The position numbers were made by a program, and so were the translations under genes. A stretch of 64,000 bases of DNA from Ligilactobacillus faecis (lineage in GTDB: Bacteria; Bacillota; Bacilli; Lactobacillales; Lactobacillaceae): contig NZ_CP123639.1 of NCBI RefSeq assembly GCF_029889745.1, positions 2,151,501-2,215,500 on the forward strand, given 5' to 3'. Shown here one piece after another: positions 8,511 through 60,729 of the stretch. Each line of letters begins with the position of its first letter. The first letter of the stretch is position 1. Under the pieces are notes generated by a model that saw only the letters and a list, made by a program, of their open reading frames with translations, did no database searches and was not told the DNA's origin.

Positions 8511-8578
8511 CACTATCCTATAGCCTGTGGAATTATATAACGATCTATATAATCAGAAATACTATAGTGCTTCCTTTC
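8511..8578 (-). promoter_or_regulatory. Leader with Shine-Dalgarno set apart by a hairpin (glycosyltransferase)
   Basis: GAAAGGA (8572-8578) precedes the arm CACTA (8565-8569). Its partner TAGTG (8511-8515) lies just before the ATG at 8504, which has no Shine-Dalgarno of its own. A TTTC within the loop could instead pair with GAAA of the Shine-Dalgarno. It is the same design as in nine other leaders of this window. Confidence 0.5.
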
Positions 8579-8637
8579 TTGGATAAGTCATCTGCCCCAC
8601 AACCTATTTTTCTAGCAAACCTGCTTTGTTTGTAAGC

Positions 8638-17390: not shown

Positions 17391-17620
17391 AGATCTTCTA
17401 TCCTTGCTATATCAAATATGGCTCAAGATAAAGTACTTTATCCTGCTAAAAAGAAATATAGCCTTCCTTTCATGTTTATTTGCTACTCTTAGTTTCAAAA
17501 AATAACTTAAGCAGCTCTAAAAGATAGTCATCATCCTGATCCTTAGTACCTAGTCCATATTTTATCTTTTTTGTAGATACTATCGATCAACTATCTTTTT
17601 ACTTTTCAATTACTATTATA
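17391..17620 (-). promoter_or_regulatory. Long structured ylbF leader with SD-hairpin module
   Basis: A -10 TATAAT lies at 17615-17620 with a weak -35. The RNA then contains a long-range stem (AAAGATAGT near 17592-17600 with ACTATCTTT near 17521-17530). Next come GAAAGGA (17465-17471), arm GCTATAT (17456-17462) and its partner ATATAGC (17406-17412), 15 bases before ATG. The decamer CTAGGTACTA (17544-17553) recurs in the phoH leader. Confidence 0.55.
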
Positions 17621-20366: not shown

Positions 20367-20446
20367 AAGATCACCTCAAACATTAGTACACATCTTGATA
20401 CATATCATTTTAACAAAAAAAACTTAACAATCATAGGTCAACTACT

Positions 20447-20514
20447 GCTATATAAAATGTAAGTAAACATGAACAAATAATTATGTTTGAGAAAGAAATA
20501 TAGCTTTTCCTTTC
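20447..20514 (-). promoter_or_regulatory. Copy of the SD-hairpin leader module upstream of argR
   Basis: GAAAGGA (20508-20514), arm GCTATAT (20498-20504) and partner ATATAGC (20447-20453) match the clpB copy closely over about 70 bases, including a TTTCTTTC that could mask the Shine-Dalgarno. The nearest ATG 12 bases past the hairpin opens only a 9-codon frame. argR starts about 80 bases further with its own Shine-Dalgarno. Confidence 0.5.
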
Positions 20515-20529
20515 CTAATTTTATTTACT

Positions 20530-29058: not shown

Positions 29059-29103
29059 GATGTAAAAAAGATCATTCTACTCTCGAATGATCTTTTTTAC
29101 ATC
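29059..29103 (-). terminator. Terminator of clpB
   Basis: A 19-bp stem (29059-29077 with 29085-29103) begins at the clpB stop codon. Its T-rich arm serves as the U-tract. Confidence 0.8.
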
Positions 29104-31706
29104 TATTTTTGGATAAGATCCTTTGTCTCAAAAGCGACTTGATCACCAGCAAGTTTTAATAAGACCTCAGAATGAGGCATGATCTGCCCAGCGATCAAAG
29201 CTTTAGCAAGTGGAGTCTCGATCTTTTCTGTGATGAAACGCTGTAATGGACGCGCACCATAAGCTGGATCGTAACCATTTTTTGCGATCCACGCCTTCAA
29301 TTCATCACTTAAAACTAATTTGATCTCTTGATCAGCTAAACGTTTCGTCAAACGTTCGATAAATTTTGTCACGATCTCAGTCACGGCTAAAAGATCCAAC
29401 GGTGTGAACATGATGATATCATCGATCCGATTTAAAAACTCAGGTTTAAAGTGTGCTTGAGCGATCTTTAAAACTTGCTCTTTAGTTTTATCTGAGATCT
29501 GACCATCAGTTGAGGCATCATTTAAAAGCAATTCTGAACCTAAATTAGAAGTCAAGATCAAGATCGTATTTCTAAAATCAACTGTCCGCCCTTGACCATC
29601 TGTCAAACGTCCGTCATCTAAAACTTGTAGTAACAAATTGAAAACATCGGGATGCGCTTTTTCGATCTCATCAAATAACACGATCGTATAAGGATCTCGG
29701 CGCACAGCCTCTGTCAATTGGCCGCCTTCTTCATAGCCGATGTACCCAGGTGCTGCTCCTACTAGCCGTGAGATCGAAGCTTTTTCCATATATTCAGACA
29801 TGTCGATCCGCACCATATGCTTTTCTGAATCAAAGAGATCTTCAGCTAACGCTTTAGCTAATTCCGTTTTCCCGACCCCAGTTGGTCCTAAAAACATAAA
29901 AGAGCCTAACGGTTTAGATGGATCTTGTAGACCGGCGCGCGAACGTAAGACAGCATCTGAAACAGCTTTGACTGCTTCGTCTTGTCCGATCACACGTTGG
30001 TGTAACTTTTCATCAAGGTGTAACAGTTTTTCTCTTTCACCTTGAACGATCTTGTTGACTGGGATCCCTGTCAAACGACTGACAACTGAAGCGATCTCAT
30101 CGTCAGTAACTGATTCTTCAACTAAGAGATGCGCAGGCTTTTTCTCATTTTCAAGTGTGGCTAGCTCTTGTTCGAGTTTTGGGATCACTCCATACTGTAA
30201 CTTAGCTGCTTTTTCAAGTTCATAGTCACTCTCAGCTGTTTGCAATTCTTGCTTAGCGTGATCAAGCTCAGCCTTTTTATCACTAACTTTTTGAATACTT
30301 TCGCGTTCACTTTCCCACCGCATCTTTAATTGATTTGCTTGCTCTCTTAAATCAGCTAACTCGCTTTGCATCTCTGCTAATCTTTTTTTAGAGGCTGAGT
30401 CGCTTTCCTTTTTCAAAGCAGCTTCTTCAACTTCTTTACGCATCAATTCACGCGTGACTTGATCAAGTTCAGTTGGCATCGAATTCATCTCAACTCTGAT
30501 CTCAGCACAAGCTTCATCGACTAGATCGATCGCTTTATCTGGCAAATAGCGATCAGTGATGTAACGGTCAGATAATGTTGCTGCTGCGACTAACGCATTA
30601 TCATGGATCCGTACTCCGTGGTGTGTTTCATACCGTTCTTTTAAACCACGCAAGATCGAGATCGTCTCAGTGACACTTGGCTCTTTAACTAAAACTTTTT
30701 GAAAACGCCGTTCAAGTGCTTTGTCTTTTTCTAAATATTCACGATATTCATCTAACGTCGTCGCCCCGATCAAGTGCAATTCTCCTCGGGCAAGCATTGG
30801 TTTCAAGAGATTCCCCGCATCCATACTTCCCTCGGTTTTACCTGCACCAACGATATTATGGATCTCATCGATAAATAAGATGATCTGACCTTCACTTTTA
30901 GCGACTTCTTTTAAAACAGCTTTCAATCGTTCTTCAAATTCACCACGATACTTAGCACCTGCGATCAAAGCTCCCATATCAAGTGAAAAGATCGTCTTAT
31001 CTTTCAAATTATCTGGAACATCGCGTGAAACGATCCGTTGCGCCAAGCCTTCAATGATCGCCGTCTTGCCGACCCCAGGTTCTCCAAGCAACACAGGATT
31101 ATTTTTGGTTTTGCGTGATAAGATCCGGATTACATCGCGGATCTCATCATCGCGTCCGATGATCGGATCTTGCTTACCTTTTTTGACTTGTTTGACTAGA
31201 TCGATCCCGTATTTTTCTAAAGCCTTATATTGCTCTTCTTGATTTTTAGAAGTTACTTTCTCACCATTGCGCAATTGAACAACAACTTCTTCTAACTTTT
31301 TAGCAGTGATCTTGTGTTCTGTTAAAAATTTGACTAATGGATCATAAGTTTGCTTCATCAAAGCTAAAACAAGAGTATCTAAGGCAATATATTCGTCAGC
31401 AAACTGTTTTTTGATCTCATCTGCATCCCGTAAAAGTTGTAACAACTTTTGGCTAAAAGTTTGACCATAGCTCACATTACCAGTCAAAACAGGTTGCTCA
31501 GCTAAAATTTGATCGATCTTTTGCTCAAATCCATTTAGATCAATGCCAGCCCTTTTATAAATATCAGCGACTAGTTCACCTGGTTGCACTAAAAATTTAA
31601 ATAGGTGGCTCACATCGATCGCTTGATTTTTACGGGTGATCGCGATCTGTTGTGCTTGTCCTAAAGCATCTTGGACTGCTGTCGTAAAATTATTTTCATC
31701 ATTCAT
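29103..31706 (-). CDS. clpB: ATP-dependent disaggregase ClpB
   Basis: An 867-residue Hsp100 chaperone. The N-domain covers residues 1-145. The first AAA domain has Walker A GEPGVGKT near 205, followed by the coiled middle domain (about 405-520). The second AAA domain has [13 protein letters not shown] near 605. It rescues aggregated proteins with DnaK. The start region carries only a weak AGG. A strong GAAAGGA lies 86 bases upstream beyond a hairpin. No CIRCE and no convincing CtsR operator is seen in the 230-base leader, which is unusual for a clp gene. Confidence 0.96.
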
Positions 31707-31720
31707 CGTCTTCTTTGCCT

Positions 31721-31917
31721 GCTATATAAAATGTGAATAAACATACTTATTTATAATAAATGAGCACATTTTTAGAAAGAAATATAGCTTTTCCTTTCTT
31801 GATCTTATTTACCATTATTGCTATCAAAAGGCCCTACTTTTGACGGCAAATATATTCGCCTCACATTTGATCTTTCTTACGAATCTTGATCATATCTCAG
31901 TATCTTTGGGCCAACAA
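31721..31917 (-). promoter_or_regulatory. clpB promoter and structured leader
   Basis: A -35 TTGTTG (31912-31917), 17 bases, and a -10 TATGAT (31889-31894) predict a leader of about 175 bases. It holds hairpin GGCGAA-TATA-TTTGCC (31846-31861 area), hairpin TCAAAAG-TAGGGC-CTTTTGA (31824-31843 area), GAAAGGA (31792-31798), arm GCTATAT (31782-31788) and partner ATATAGC (31721-31727), then 14 bases to ATG. TTTCTTTC at 31775-31782 can pair with the Shine-Dalgarno instead. Confidence 0.6.
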
Positions 31918-31936
31918 GCGAGCACTCAGCCACAGA

Positions 31937-33178
31937 TCACCGAACTGCCAGTGAAATGATCTCTAAGATCACTGCTACAGCTTGTTCCATAACTTGTGTC
32001 GAAACATATTCATAGCGCGCGTGCATATTTTCGCCTCCAGCAAAAATATTTGGCGTTGGCAGACCTTTAAATGAGATCGTTGAACCATCAGTACCACCCC
32101 GAACTGGATAAATGACTGGAGTGATCCCTAAATTCTGCATTGCTTGCTTAGCAAGTTCAACTACTGTCATATCTTTTTCGATCACGTCACGCATATTATA
32201 ATATTGATCTTTTAGCTCTAATTTGATCCGCTCTGTCCCTAGTGCTTGATTGATTTGCGCGACATTTTCTTGCATCAAACGTTTCCGTTGTTCAAATTTT
32301 GCGTGATCATGATCTCGAATGATATAGCTTGAACTAGCATGATCAACTGTCCCGCTCAATTCTTCTAAATGAAAGAATCCTTCGCGCCCAGATGTTTTTT
32401 CAGGAACTTCGTCTTTAGGCAACATTTCATGAAGATCGATCGCCAGTTGTAACGCATTGACCATGATCCCTTTAGCGGTAGCTGGGTGCACATTTTTCCC
32501 GATAAATTCAAGTTTAGCTTGCGCAGCGTTGAAAGTCTCATATTCAAGTTCACCAAGCGGTCCTCCGTCAACAGTATAAGCGATCTCAGCTCCAAAATCG
32601 TCTACGTCAAATTTGAGTGCCCCTGTTCCGATCTCTTCATCTGGCCCGATCCCGATCATTACATCGCCATGTTCGATCTCAGGATGAGCAAGTAAATATT
32701 CCACTGCAGTGATCACCTCAGCTACTCCTGCTTTATCATCGGCCCCAAGTAATGTCGTTCCATCAGTTGTGATCAGATCATGACCAGCATACTTTTTCAA
32801 ACTTGGAAATTCAGCAGGTGACAATACATACTCACCCGCAGCATCTAACTTGATCTCGCTACGCCCATCATATGCTTTGACGATCTGAGGTGAAACATTT
32901 GTTGCATTAAAATTAGCTGTATCCATATGGGCTAAAAAACCGATTTTTTTAGCTTTCTTACCTGCTGGCAGATTACTTGGCAAAACAGCTAAAACATAGC
33001 CATTATTAGGATCGATCCGCACATTTGCTAGTCCAAGCTCACTTAGTTCTTTAGCTAGCTCCTTAGCAAATTCAACTTGACTTTTAGTTGACGGGATCGT
33101 CGTTGAAGTCGCGTCTGAACGTGTTTCTTTTTTCACATATTTTAAAAAACGTGGTACTAGATTTTCATACTTGCTCAT
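31937..33178 (-). CDS. pepT: Peptidase T (tripeptidase)
   Basis: A 413-residue M20 dizinc aminopeptidase releasing the N-terminal residue of tripeptides in the cytoplasm. Zinc ligands lie in FLAHMDTAN near residue 82 and LLGADDKAG near 148, GPDEEIGTG near 184 holds the catalytic Glu, and a late Asp/His set completes the site. Peptide use fits an auxotrophic lactic acid bacterium. AAGAAGGGTGAG precedes ATG 33178. Confidence 0.95.
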
Positions 33179-45388: not shown

Positions 45389-45678
45389 CCGCCTATTTAT
45401 CGCTATTTAAAATGTGAGCGTCCCTAACTATCTCTCAAGGAACGCGAAAGTTAGATAGCTTTCCTTTCTCGATTTTTCTCATATAATGGATAATAAATAG
45501 TAGTACCTAGCGAAGCATTTACTTGTGACTAAAATCACACATTAACATATGGACTACTCTGAACTTTGATATTTATTTCACATCTAAACTTTCCTTTAAA
45601 TATCAAAAACAGTCATAGTCAACGACCTAACTTCTAAATACTAGGTACCTAGCTTCGTATCCGCTTTGATATACCCCA
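45389..45678 (-). ncRNA. Long structured phoH 5' leader, candidate regulatory RNA
   Basis: After the promoter, the RNA can close a P1-like stem CGAAGC with GCTTCG (about 45651-45656 and 45511-45516). This encloses a GACTA/TAGTC arm, a TTTGATATTT/AAATATCAAAG arm and a hairpin GTGTGA-TTTTAG-TCACA. Downstream come GAAAGGA (45462-45468), arm GCTAT (45455-45459), an inner GCGTTCC/GGGACGC stem, and partner ATAGC (45402-45406) 13 bases before the start. The fold is inferred by eye. Confidence 0.5.
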
Positions 45679-46604: not shown

Positions 46605-46699
46605 TGACTCAGAAATAGCTTTCATTTTCCTACACCTATCTCGATCATGTGAAAAGTAAAATGTGCTCTGTGGTCGCAGCCGGAAAGCTAGAATATCTA

Positions 46700-46752
46700 G
46701 AAAGGAGTAGCTATATATTTTCATCAGCACATTTATATAGCGATCATCATCT
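46700..46752 (+). promoter_or_regulatory. SD-hairpin module of the PPDK regulator gene
   Basis: GAAAGGAG (46700-46707), arm GCTATAT (46710-46716), partner ATATAGC (46735-46741), then 11 bases to ATG 46753. No other Shine-Dalgarno is present. It is the only copy on the plus strand, so the design follows gene orientation and not a strand-biased repeat. Confidence 0.6.
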
Positions 46753-47568: not shown

Positions 47569-47637
47569 TATCACTAAAAAGTAGCCCTCTCAAGTTGATC
47601 TGAGACCCGTCAAGTGAACAACTAAATAATTAAAATT

Positions 47638-48369
47638 CTAGGCAGCCTGATTCCGGTATTCTTCTGGAGTCAGGCTGTTTAGTTTTATTTGGTAACGTTG
47701 GGTATTGTAGAACTTGATATAGTTTTCGATCATTTCTACAAGTTCTCCATATGTTTCACATTTTAGCCAATAATAACATTCTGTCTTGAAATGACTCCAA
47801 AAACTTTCCATTGGTGCGTTATCGATACATTTCCCCACTCGAGACATACTTCTTGTAACACCATGCCTTGAGGTCAACCGAAGATATTCCTTTGAAGTAT
47901 ATTGAAATCCACGATCACTGTGAAGAAGTAGATTAGCTTCATTTAAATGCGTGAATGCTTTTTCTAAAGTCTTCATGACAAGCCGATTATCATTTCTTTT
48001 ACTAATTTCAAAACTTATGATAGATCCATCGTATAGATCTTTGATCGCACTTAAATAAGCTTTTTGTCCTAAGCCATATTCTAAATAAGTGACATCAGTC
48101 ACCCACTTTTGATTAGGTCTAGTAGCGGAAAAATCACGACCTAAAGTATTTTCTTCGTAGTTTAAATGTTCTGAACGAGTACAACCTCGGCGTTTGCGAC
48201 GAATTACTGAATATAAACCAAGGACTCTCATTAAGCGACGAATACGTTTGAAGTTATATTGTTTTTGATACTTTCGATTGATAAGAAGAGTCATTCTTCT
48301 AGAACCGTAAATTCCATTTAAAGCATGAAATTCTTTTTTTATGATCTCACTTAACCATTCATTTTCCAA
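47638..48369 (-). CDS. IS3 transposase OrfB (integrase core), copy 1
   Basis: The 243 residues from the first ATG hold a DDE integrase core: WVTDVTYLEYG with the first Asp, LLHSDRGFQYTS with the second, and NAPMESFWSHFKTE with the Glu. The same frame stays open upstream to the orfA end (EISFIPKNLRFKAIQ, then LTAPKSQCTLENEW). The functional form is therefore an OrfAB fusion made by -1 slippage at A AAA AAA (48546-48552). It appears intact and active. Confidence 0.9.
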   Translation of the reverse strand: MENEWLSEIIKKEFHALNGIYGSRRMTLLINRKYQKQYNFKRIRRLMRVLGLYSVIRRKRRGCTRSEHLNYEENTLGRDFSATRPNQKWVTDVTYLEYGLGQKAYLSAIKDLYDGSIISFEISKRNDNRLVMKTLEKAFTHLNEANLLLHSDRGFQYTSKEYLRLTSRHGVTRSMSRVGKCIDNAPMESFWSHFKTECYYWLKCETYGELVEMIENYIKFYNTQRYQIKLNSLTPEEYRNQAA

Positions 48370-55836: not shown

Positions 55837-57123
55837 TTATTCCCCTTTACTCAAAACTGTCGCAAAATCGCCATAGATCGCAGCTAGAGCAACACTGGTC
55901 TCTTCTCCTGTTGCCATATTTTTTAAATTGGCTTGTCTTGCTTCTAATTCAGTTTCTCCAAGCGTCAACGTATACCGCGCATTCAAGCGACTTGCCGTCT
56001 TAAATTGACCCTTTGGTTTTCGAGCGAGATAGTCTCTTTCCGCACTAAAACCTTGATGACGTAAAGCTTGTACTAATTTCAAAGCTTCAGCATTAACTTT
56101 TTCGCCGATCGAAACGATATAAACATCAAGTGGATCACTTAAGTCAAGCTGATCTGTTTCTGCTTCTAAAACTAAAAGTAAACGTTCGATCCCTAGCCCA
56201 AAACCGATCCCTGGCGTTTCTGGGCCTCCAAGTTGTTCGACTAAGCCATTATAACGACCACCTGCACAGACTGTCGTCCACTTACCACCAAAAGCCTTTG
56301 AATCACTCATTATTTCAAAGATCGTATGATTATAGTAATCTAGACCGCGAACCATATTAGGATCGACGACATATTCGATCCCTAAAGCATCAAGCAAACT
56401 TTTAACTGTTTCAAAATGCTCTTTAGCTGCTGGTGTTAAATGATCTAAGATCGATGGTGCATCTGCTACGATCTTTTGATCAGTTTGATCTTTACTATCT
56501 AAGACCCGAAGCGGATTTTTGTGCAGACGTTCTTTTGAATCAGCTGAAAGTTGGTCTTCATAGGGCTCTAAATAATCGATCAGAGCTTGCCGATAGTTTG
56601 TTCGAGATTCATTATCACCTAAAGTATTGAGTGCTAGTTTCAAACTCTTGAGCCCAAAATTTTGCAAAAGATCGATCGCCATTGCGATAACTTCAACATC
56701 TAATGTAGGACTATCGACGCCAAAAGCTTCGACTCCGATCTGATGAAATTCACGGAGACGCCCAGCTTGAGGACGTTCATACCGAAACATCGGCCCCATA
56801 TAATATGTTTTGACAGGTTTTTGGAATTCTGGTCCATAAAGTTTGTTTTCAACAAAACTCCGAACGACCCCTGCTGTTCCCTCAGGTCGAAGTGTAATAT
56901 GCCGGTCACCTTTATCATAGAAGTCATACATCTCTTTTGTGACGATATCTGACGTTTCACCTGAAGTTCTAGAAAAGACCTCAAAACTTTCAAAAATTGG
57001 CGTCCGCATTTCTTGATAGCGGTACTTTTTAAATAATTCGCGGGCTTTTTTTTCAACATATTGCCATTTAGCCGAATCTTCTGGCAAAATATCAAAAGTT
57101 CCCTTTGGACGTTGGTATTTCAT
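55837..57123 (-). CDS. hisS: Histidine--tRNA ligase
   Basis: About 428 residues of class II synthetase. It starts [14 protein letters not shown]. It has [13 protein letters not shown] near 80, the histidine loop [13 protein letters not shown] near 260, motif 3 [16 protein letters not shown] near 310 and a C-terminal anticodon domain. ATG 57123 matches the family start. The frame can be extended ten codons to 57153 inside the leader hairpin region. It heads hisS-aspS. Confidence 0.96.
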
Positions 57124-57130
57124 AATCACA

Positions 57131-57183
57131 CCATATAAAATGTAGTAGATCATTAATGATCTTGAAAGATATATATCCTTTCA
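57131..57183 (-). promoter_or_regulatory. hisS leader hairpin over a Shine-Dalgarno
   Basis: GAAAGGA (57176-57182) lies inside a near-perfect stem TGAAAGGATAT/ATATCTTTCA (57163-57183), so it can be masked. An alternative longer pairing of ATATAT with ATATGG (57131-57136) is possible. ATG 57123 has a weak GGTG. Confidence 0.45.
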
Positions 57184-57253
57184 TTTGATTTCTCTGCTCG
57201 CTCCCCTACATTTTTAACTTTCTAGTCGCTGAGCTTTTCAGAAATCGGTCAAA

Positions 57254-58013: not shown

Positions 58014-58025
58014 TAGCTTTATCTG

Positions 58026-58094
58026 CTATCAAATGGTAGAGTTTAGCACTAAAGATCTGTGCTTTCTTCAGAAAGAAAGATAGCTTCTCCTTCG
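58026..58094 (-). promoter_or_regulatory. SD-hairpin module of tpx
   Basis: GAAGGAG (58088-58094), arm GCTATC (58080-58085), partner GATAGC (58026-58031), then 12 bases to ATG. TTTCTTTC follows the first arm and can pair with the Shine-Dalgarno. The downstream spacer has no alternative ribosome site. Confidence 0.55.
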
Positions 58095-58156
58095 TTATTT
58101 TTAAAAGTGATGAATCTACTCTACTTTTTTCTTTCTGATCTGATATCATCTTTATC

Positions 58157-59949: not shown

Positions 59950-59997
59950 TAGAATTGATCTGAGACCCGTCAAGTGAACAACTAAATAATTAAAATT

Positions 59998-60729
59998 CTA
60001 GGCAGCCTGATTCCGGTATTCTTCTGGAGTCAGGCTGTTTAGTTTTATTTGGTAACGTTGGGTATTGTAGAACTTGATATAGTTTTCGATCATTTCTACA
60101 AGTTCTCCATATGTTTCACATTTTAGCCAATAATAACATTCTGTCTTGAAATGACTCCAAAAACTTTCCATTGGTGCGTTATCGATACATTTCCCCACTC
60201 GAGACATACTTCTTGTAACACCATGCCTTGAGGTCAACCGAAGATATTCCTTTGAAGTATATTGAAATCCACGATCACTGTGAAGAAGTAGATTAGCTTC
60301 ATTTAAATGCGTGAATGCTTTTTCTAAAGTCTTCATGACAAGCCGATTATCATTTCTTTTACTAATTTCAAAACTTATGATAGATCCATCGTATAGATCT
60401 TTGATCGCACTTAAATAAGCTTTTTGTCCTAAGCCATATTCTAAATAAGTGACATCAGTCACCCACTTTTGATTAGGTCTAGTAGCGGAAAAATCACGAC
60501 CTAAAGTATTTTCTTCGTAGTTTAAATGTTCTGAACGAGTACAACCTCGGCGTTTGCGACGAATTACTGAATATAAACCAAGGACTCTCATTAAGCGACG
60601 AATACGTTTGAAGTTATATTGTTTTTGATACTTTCGATTGATAAGAAGAGTCATTCTTCTAGAACCGTAAATTCCATTTAAAGCATGAAATTCTTTTTTT
60701 ATGATCTCACTTAACCATTCATTTTCCAA
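59998..60729 (-). CDS. IS3 transposase OrfB (integrase core), copy 2
   Basis: Same 243 residues as the first copy, with the DDE core intact. Expression requires the A7 slippery site at 60906-60912 to join orfA with the open frame that runs upstream of this ATG. Confidence 0.9.
   Translation of the reverse strand: MENEWLSEIIKKEFHALNGIYGSRRMTLLINRKYQKQYNFKRIRRLMRVLGLYSVIRRKRRGCTRSEHLNYEENTLGRDFSATRPNQKWVTDVTYLEYGLGQKAYLSAIKDLYDGSIISFEISKRNDNRLVMKTLEKAFTHLNEANLLLHSDRGFQYTSKEYLRLTSRHGVTRSMSRVGKCIDNAPMESFWSHFKTECYYWLKCETYGELVEMIENYIKFYNTQRYQIKLNSLTPEEYRNQAA

Follow-up and report, generated by a model that had tools for sequence, protein, structure and literature searches.

The clpB leader and related copies in the window

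The window, a 64,000-nucleotide stretch of the Ligilactobacillus faecis genome, carries a clpB gene on its minus strand. The gene and its leader comprise the following features:

29103..31706, minus strand: clpB coding sequence, 867 aa, with the ATG at 31706 (TIGR03346, 1273.5 bits versus a cut-off of 1232.1)
31719..31802, minus strand: core that appears to derive from a transposon right end, comprising Shine-Dalgarno (SD), P2a, loop, P1b, P2b and AG (covariance model R1, 81.5 bits, E = 4.5e-15)
31721..31727, minus strand: P2b, ATATAGC, 3' arm of the putative bridging hairpin, with AG and then 12 nt separating it from the ATG
31729..31737, minus strand: P1b, TTCACATTT, adjoining P2b
31775..31782, minus strand: TTTCTTTC, able to pair with the SD (P3; from the sequence and the nested fold, although not beyond composition in a loop-shuffle test)
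31782..31788, minus strand: P2a, GCTATAT, 5' arm of the putative bridging hairpin (covariation)
31792..31798, minus strand: SD GAAAGGA, a 7-base complement of the 16S 3' end (CCTCCTTTCT)
31854..31884, minus strand: P0 hairpin ATTCGT/GCGAAT around AAGAAAGATCAAATGTGAG (P0 rank test; the same hairpin type occurs upstream of tnpA in the full element)
31860..31868, minus strand: P1a, AAATGTGAG, situated within the P0 loop; counterpart of the IS607 left end
31889..31917, minus strand: possible weak promoter, TTGTTG-17-TATGAT, suggested by the sequence

On the minus strand, GAAAGGAAAAGCTATATTTCTTTC occupies positions 31775-31798 of the clpB leader, and CACATTTTATATAGC positions 31721-31735, followed by AG, 12 bases and the clpB ATG. 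The first-pass annotation had proposed that pairing of GAAAG with CTTTC masks the SD and that the alternative pairing of GCTATAT with ATATAGC frees it, and both pairings can indeed form in the clpB leader, above chance. Matches to the 24-mer pattern at up to three mismatches number three in the window, against 0.00 expected, and the 24-mer itself has 35 matches in the host genome, where the reversed control gave 0. The additional proposition that the two folds are mutually exclusive is correct for nested structures, in which GAAAG/CTTTC encloses one arm of GCTATAT/ATATAGC, but the pairings could coexist as a pseudoknot, which had not been considered. The clpB leader reaches no Rfam gathering score, and a consensus scan of the leader returned no promoter match. 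As previously noted, there is no clear CtsR box: a motif scan of positions 31707-31950 yielded no match to RGTCAAANNNRGTCAAA at up to three mismatches and, tandem GGTCAAA heptads being absent from that interval at the same tolerance, a CtsR-regulated promoter was rejected.

Covariance model R1, built from 25 host copies with helix P2 as its sole structure, detects nine copies in the window at E ≤ 1, two of them weak (E 0.02-0.04). All six genes for which the same element had been claimed, namely, argR, ylbF, phoH, tpx, glyQ and a glycosyltransferase gene, are recovered. The copies other than that of clpB are:

8515..8582, minus strand: copy before a glycosyltransferase gene
17404..17475, minus strand: copy before a ylbF-like gene
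20445..20518, minus strand: decayed tnpB-type right end upstream of argR, with no adjacent start codon
41369..41417, minus strand: copy before glyQ; its helix differs, CTACTGAT/ATCAGTAG, and the model match is weak (E 0.036)
45400..45472, minus strand: copy before phoH
46696..46743, plus strand: copy before a PpsR-like gene, unnamed in the first-pass annotation
57133..57186, minus strand: weak copy (E 0.02) before ORF 55837-57153, likewise new, with P1 AAAATGTAG/CTACATTTT
58023..58098, minus strand: copy before tpx, in which P2 is GCTATC/GATAGC

The real start of ORF 55837-57153 probably lies near 57123. Separately, the window contains identical 300-base direct repeats at 47595-47894 and 59955-60254, 12,360 bases apart.

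Size and distribution of the family

Across the host genome, R1 recovers 92 copies at E ≤ 1 and, with more stringent filtering, 74 at E ≤ 0.01. At E ≤ 0.01, matches occur in 11 of 41 genomes (the host, G000, and 40 relatives), with 28 copies in Ligilactobacillus murinus DSM 20452 (G014), 30 in L. apodemi DSM 16634 (G021), 31 in a third relative (G022) and nine or fewer in each of the other seven; across a sample of 397 genomes in 40 genera of the family, matches at E ≤ 1e-4 were confined to 21 genomes in 6 genera. The host genes behind the element include gyrA, murA, glyQ, coaBC, scpB, radA, rbfA, dnaJ, cshA, hflX, recU and zapA (named by best family match, in some cases below the curated cut-off, from a sample of 30 proteins, 28 of which belong to the 60 start-proximal host genes). 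The element occurs more than once in 26 groups of homologous genes, nearly all of them spanning species. A glycosyltransferase gene of the host (L057) and one of L. murinus (L175) carry an identical element, which suggests recent transfer.

The element in the clpB leader belongs to a dispersed family and does not look like a clpB-specific thermosensor. Regulation peculiar to clpB does not agree with the presence of the same element in front of gyrA, murA, glyQ, coaBC and many unrelated genes. Among 20 clpB orthologues found in the genus, the 17 that could be parsed all possess an ordinary G-rich SD and lack the element, so that heat control of clpB through the leader, as had been suspected, would be a recent peculiarity of a single species.

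Transposon origin of the element

Long (class-1) copies lie ~103-165 bases downstream of TnpB reading frames ending in ...DRDENAVxNLLALLN. The full element, ~2,030 bp long and common to five host copies, consists of a MerR-like/serine-recombinase gene (tnpA), tnpB downstream of it and the guide RNA at the right end, which terminates at TATATAGCAG. P0001, the transposase of a relative, is of the IS607 type (NF033518, 207 bits versus a cut-off of 110), the host TnpB is a guided TnpB (NF040570, 249 bits), and the Rfam Transposase-1 RNA (RF03014) matches the right end in all five elements scanned. The full-length copies are IS607-family transposons encoding a serine recombinase and TnpB, and their right end is the TnpB guide-RNA scaffold. 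A separate TnpB family is present in the host as well, at G000:C1:1587864 and roughly a dozen other positions, and more than ten of its copies are intact.

Directly before tnpA lies a left-end hairpin, AATATCTAC[AAGAAAGATAAAATGTGAG]GTAGATATT, and a hairpin of the same type and loop, P0 with P1a, makes up the 5' part of the clpB leader. Given this match, the short copies look like remnants of a left plus a right end. An outer left terminus was searched for in the short copies and none was recognizable; because an intact left terminus is missing, we refer to the clpB leader as a relic rather than as an IS607 element. In L148, the P0 hairpin (~1085-1125) adjoins the tnpA start codon and may also control translation of the transposase.

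Insertion sites and probable targeting of Shine-Dalgarno sequences

Left ends were located in 11 of 18 fetched regions, the other seven having none (an extra left-end pattern match, in L158 at 1041, was judged spurious and left out), and all 11 read GGAG. Joining the flanks (left + AG + right) recreates an SD no more than 10 nt ahead of a start codon in six of the 11 (L151, L158, L159, L160, L161 and L163), as exemplified by GTTAGGG-AG-ATTTAAATTG in L160 and AATAAGG-AG-TGGCGATG in L163; four host copies (L148, L149, L150 and L153) and L155 have the GGAG site with no adjoining start. Judging from the joined flanks, insertion of the full copies splits a Shine-Dalgarno sequence. According to published accounts, IS607 inserts at GG (PMC4227781), and related TnpBs of the RAGATH-18 type recognize the TAM AGGAG in 18 of 22 strains (PMC11061315). 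This IS607 lineage appears to home into Shine-Dalgarno sequences; for the short copies, the left boundary of which was not found, such insertion is extrapolated from the full copies.

Position, SD strength and spacing

G000, G014, G021 and G022 together contribute 166 distinct copies: in 142 of them the end of the element is 2-15 nt from a start codon downstream, in 13 the interval is 27-44 bases, and for 11 there is no start within 45; the same position rule is satisfied at 296 of 2000 random window positions. In the host, the argR copy and seven others lack a qualifying start codon within 45 nt. The 142 genes are almost devoid of an SD close to the start: the median duplex with the 16S tail (the 16S 3' end was found three times in the host genome) within -20..-3 is -3.0 kcal/mol, compared with -9.3 for 43 ORFs of the window that are 200 aa or longer and are favoured by being scored on the best of several starts, and -1.5 for random 18-mers. 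The sole strong SD is the GAAAGGA beyond hairpin P2, the region of which gives a median of -10.3 kcal/mol over the 142 copies. A split ribosome-binding site is expected to show just this arrangement, in which a hairpin lies between a strong SD and the start and no other SD is close by.

The spacing of these parts was analysed in 140 copies, two without GG having been dropped. The linear distance from GG to the start codon is 66 nt (sd 12.9, range 29-92) and, with the P2 hairpin excised, 14 nt (sd 2.3, range 8-21), which is longer than usual; the SD lies 3-5 nt from P2a in 136 of the 140. The constancy of the hairpin-excised spacing is the main reason for reading the leader as a split site.

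We consider it probable that an IS607 transposon end survives as a relic in the clpB leader and acts there as a hairpin-bridged split ribosome-binding site. Under this model, the IS607 lineage would insert into GG|AG, the core of the SD, thereby setting its right end a few bases before the start codon and depriving the gene of its native SD. The right end, which supplies the 3' portion of the TnpB guide-RNA scaffold in intact elements, would bring its own strong SD, GAAAGGA, with P2 following 3-5 nt further on, and folding of P2, probably stacked on the P0/P1 pseudoknot, would loop out some 15-73 nt and place this SD nearly at the usual distance from the start. The host and its relatives appear to have retained dozens of these ends, the majority lacking tnpA and tnpB, as the functional SD of housekeeping genes such as clpB. 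The origin, the insertion site of the full copies, the position before starts, the lack of another SD, the spacing and the covariation described below are all legible in the DNA itself. Ribosomes would then use the distal GAAAGGA, with P2 as the active fold.

Conserved helices and covariation

In 75 host copies, 92.9% of P2 cells are paired and covariation reaches 0.154, versus 0.090 for shuffled and at most 0.059 for slid alignments; in 86 copies from three relatives, 95.4% are paired, covariation is 0.236 (shuffled 0.121, slid at most 0.064) and six of the seven base pairs have changed on both sides. These values come from alignments fitted to the P2 model and include orthologous copies that are not independent of each other. 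Compensatory change is also seen between orthologues: GCTATAG/CTATAGC is replaced by ACTATAG/CTATAGT in the pair L205 and L221, and L241 has GCTATAT/ATATAGC where L223 and L247 have GCTGCAT/GTGCAGC. P2 conservation may in part be older than any translational role, since P2 also belongs to the guide RNA.

In P1, the P0 loop pairs with bases immediately ahead of P2b; the helix crosses P2 and so constitutes a pseudoknot. A rank test of own versus swapped pairing supports P1 in both the host (58 copies, p = 1.5e-7) and the relatives (73 copies, p = 2.1e-8), and the corresponding test for P0 gives p = 7e-12 in the 75 of 142 copies in which the P0 motif could be located. The transposon origin, the P0/P1 pseudoknot and the putative split-SD role had all escaped the first-pass annotation. 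P3 reaches a score of at least 11 in 115 of 142 copies and beats loop shuffles at p ≤ 0.05 in 12 of 142; loop shuffling thus reveals nothing beyond composition, and P3, with its TTTCTTTC arm, was rejected as a selected helix. The TTTCTTTC arm is missing from the shortened copies L197, L238 and L243, which keep the SD, the hairpin and the spacing; the loop of L197 measures 3 nt against a long loop in its orthologue L209, with the same three features unchanged.

Folding of the leader and the possibility of a switch

Nested folding of the clpB leader at 25, 30, 37, 42, 45 and 50 °C leaves the SD masked throughout, its unpaired probability never exceeding 0.06, and P3 has a probability close to 1, P2 one close to 0; P1 plus P3 is the preferred combination, and the minimum of -40.9 kcal/mol compares with -32.2 when P2 is forced. 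The nested model is unable to combine P2 with P1, which would be a pseudoknot, and adding P1 to P2 would be expected to narrow the gap. In RNA thermometers such as ROSE and FourU, a helix masks the SD upstream of a heat-shock gene, and the clpB SD could be masked by a helix in the same manner. Unlike in those thermometers, there is no opening between 25 and 50 °C in the nested model, and the element is neither tied to heat-shock genes nor conserved at clpB. The thermosensor envisaged at first is thus not supported, and the RNA thermometer class was rejected because the SD fails to open over the growth-to-heat-shock range in a model limited to nested structures.

When 142 copies are folded locally in the same nested model, P2 exceeds a probability of 0.5 in 39 and the SD is open in 46, that is, in 28 of the 39 copies with P2 above this threshold versus 18 of the 103 without. 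This nested-fold result weighs more heavily than any other against a split site and gives the strongest backing to a two-state translational switch, in which P3, together with P1 in the nested structure, would hide the SD, P2 would free it, and a signal (temperature, a ligand, a protein or the speed of transcription) would shift many genes together. What stands of the originally proposed switch is that the exclusive nested folds are real and that, within a nested model, P3 masks the SD and P2 tends to free it; no selection of the TTTCTTTC arm beyond composition was detected, P3 exceeding loop composition in so few copies and having been lost from several. The conservation of P0 and P1, even though a bare SD-hairpin seems to suffice in L197, also favours a switch. 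Conversely, essential genes such as gyrA, murA and glyQ should not default to the off state, the targets have no shared function, and temperature opens nothing in the nested model. All in all, we regard a two-state switch as unlikely.

Mobile remnants or retained elements

The short copies could alternatively be non-autonomous, MITE-like elements that keep the scaffold for TnpB acting in trans, their proximity to starts reflecting target choice and their structure being unused by the host. The host indeed has seven intact TnpB genes of this family, the TAM AGGAG explains the position, and P2 and P1 resemble the IS607 reRNA pseudoknots described in PMC11061315. However, G021 has 36 copies at E ≤ 0.05 and only TnpA fragments and a single TnpB of the family, with a stop codon inside. 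G014 is without TnpB of this family and has one intact TnpB of another clade, the only family TnpB of G022 is a 74-aa piece at a contig edge, the host TnpA copies contain in-frame stops or are fragments, and no intact TnpA of the family was found in G000, G014, G021 or G022, although G014 and G022 are drafts in which copies at contig edges (L245 and L246 at G014 contig starts; L176, L179 and L189 at G022 contig ends) are a sign of unassembled transposons, so that collapsed intact transposons are possible. Moreover, the left termini of the short copies are unrecognizable, the genes behind them have no other SD, and orthologous copies have been kept across species and covary, all of which makes mobilization in trans an improbable account of the family. 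A purely MITE-like terminal repeat was likewise rejected: P1 resembles the complementary ends of IS607 but covaries between orthologous leaders, and the short copies have lost the outer left end.

Splicing after the fashion of IStrons, with the element leaving the RNA and the native SD being restored, is highly improbable: IS607-type IStrons exist and insert at GG, according to PMC4227781, but five full or partial elements gave no group I intron match (Rfam, E ≤ 1), and transcription of the short copies seems to begin within the element.

Relation to known systems

The closest parallels to a hairpin-bridged split site are genes 38 and 25 of phage T4, in which a hairpin between the SD and the AUG shortens the distance from 22 to 5 and from 27 to 11 nt, respectively, and in which mutations destabilizing the hairpin reduce initiation (PMC3014915). 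The clpB leader is predicted from sequence to shorten the distance in the same way. Unlike the T4 sites, which are single phage genes, the elements described here form a dispersed family of transposon origin with dozens of members per bacterial genome, an extra pseudoknot and loops of up to about 59 nt. With the IS607/TnpB-reRNA system of the RAGATH-18 type (PMC11061315), they share a serine recombinase, TnpB, a scaffold at the right end and a TAM, AGGAG, that fits GG|AG; unlike in that system, the Rfam match is to Transposase-1 and the short copies lack tnpA and tnpB. The text of PMC11061315 contains no words beginning with ribosom, RBS or Shine. TldRs, nuclease-dead TnpB repressors that together with a guide repress DNA targets (PMC13418256), provide another case of a TnpB system domesticated for the control of host genes, but there protein and guide act on DNA, whereas in the present family it is the RNA end itself that seems to influence translation, in cis. 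Our search of the open-access literature found no report of split ribosome-binding sites made by transposons, which is weak evidence of absence.

Implications

The proposed relic offers a reason for the TAM AGGAG of some TnpB systems, namely, that the element targets ribosome-binding sites, and suggests how insertion is tolerated, with the guide-RNA end doubling as a hairpin-presented replacement site. A broader scenario, which we consider doubtful, is that a guide-RNA scaffold has turned into a cis-acting translation module present in dozens of copies per genome, has become the obligatory ribosome site of essential genes owing to the homing of its transposon into SDs and, through the competition of P1/P3 with P2, may coordinate the translation of ~70 unrelated genes. 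The split-site reading bears on the annotation of start sites and SDs in lactobacilli. If true, it would widen the class of split ribosome-binding sites, represented by two phage genes, to bacteria on a genome-wide scale, gyrA and murA included, and would represent a guide RNA domesticated without its protein.
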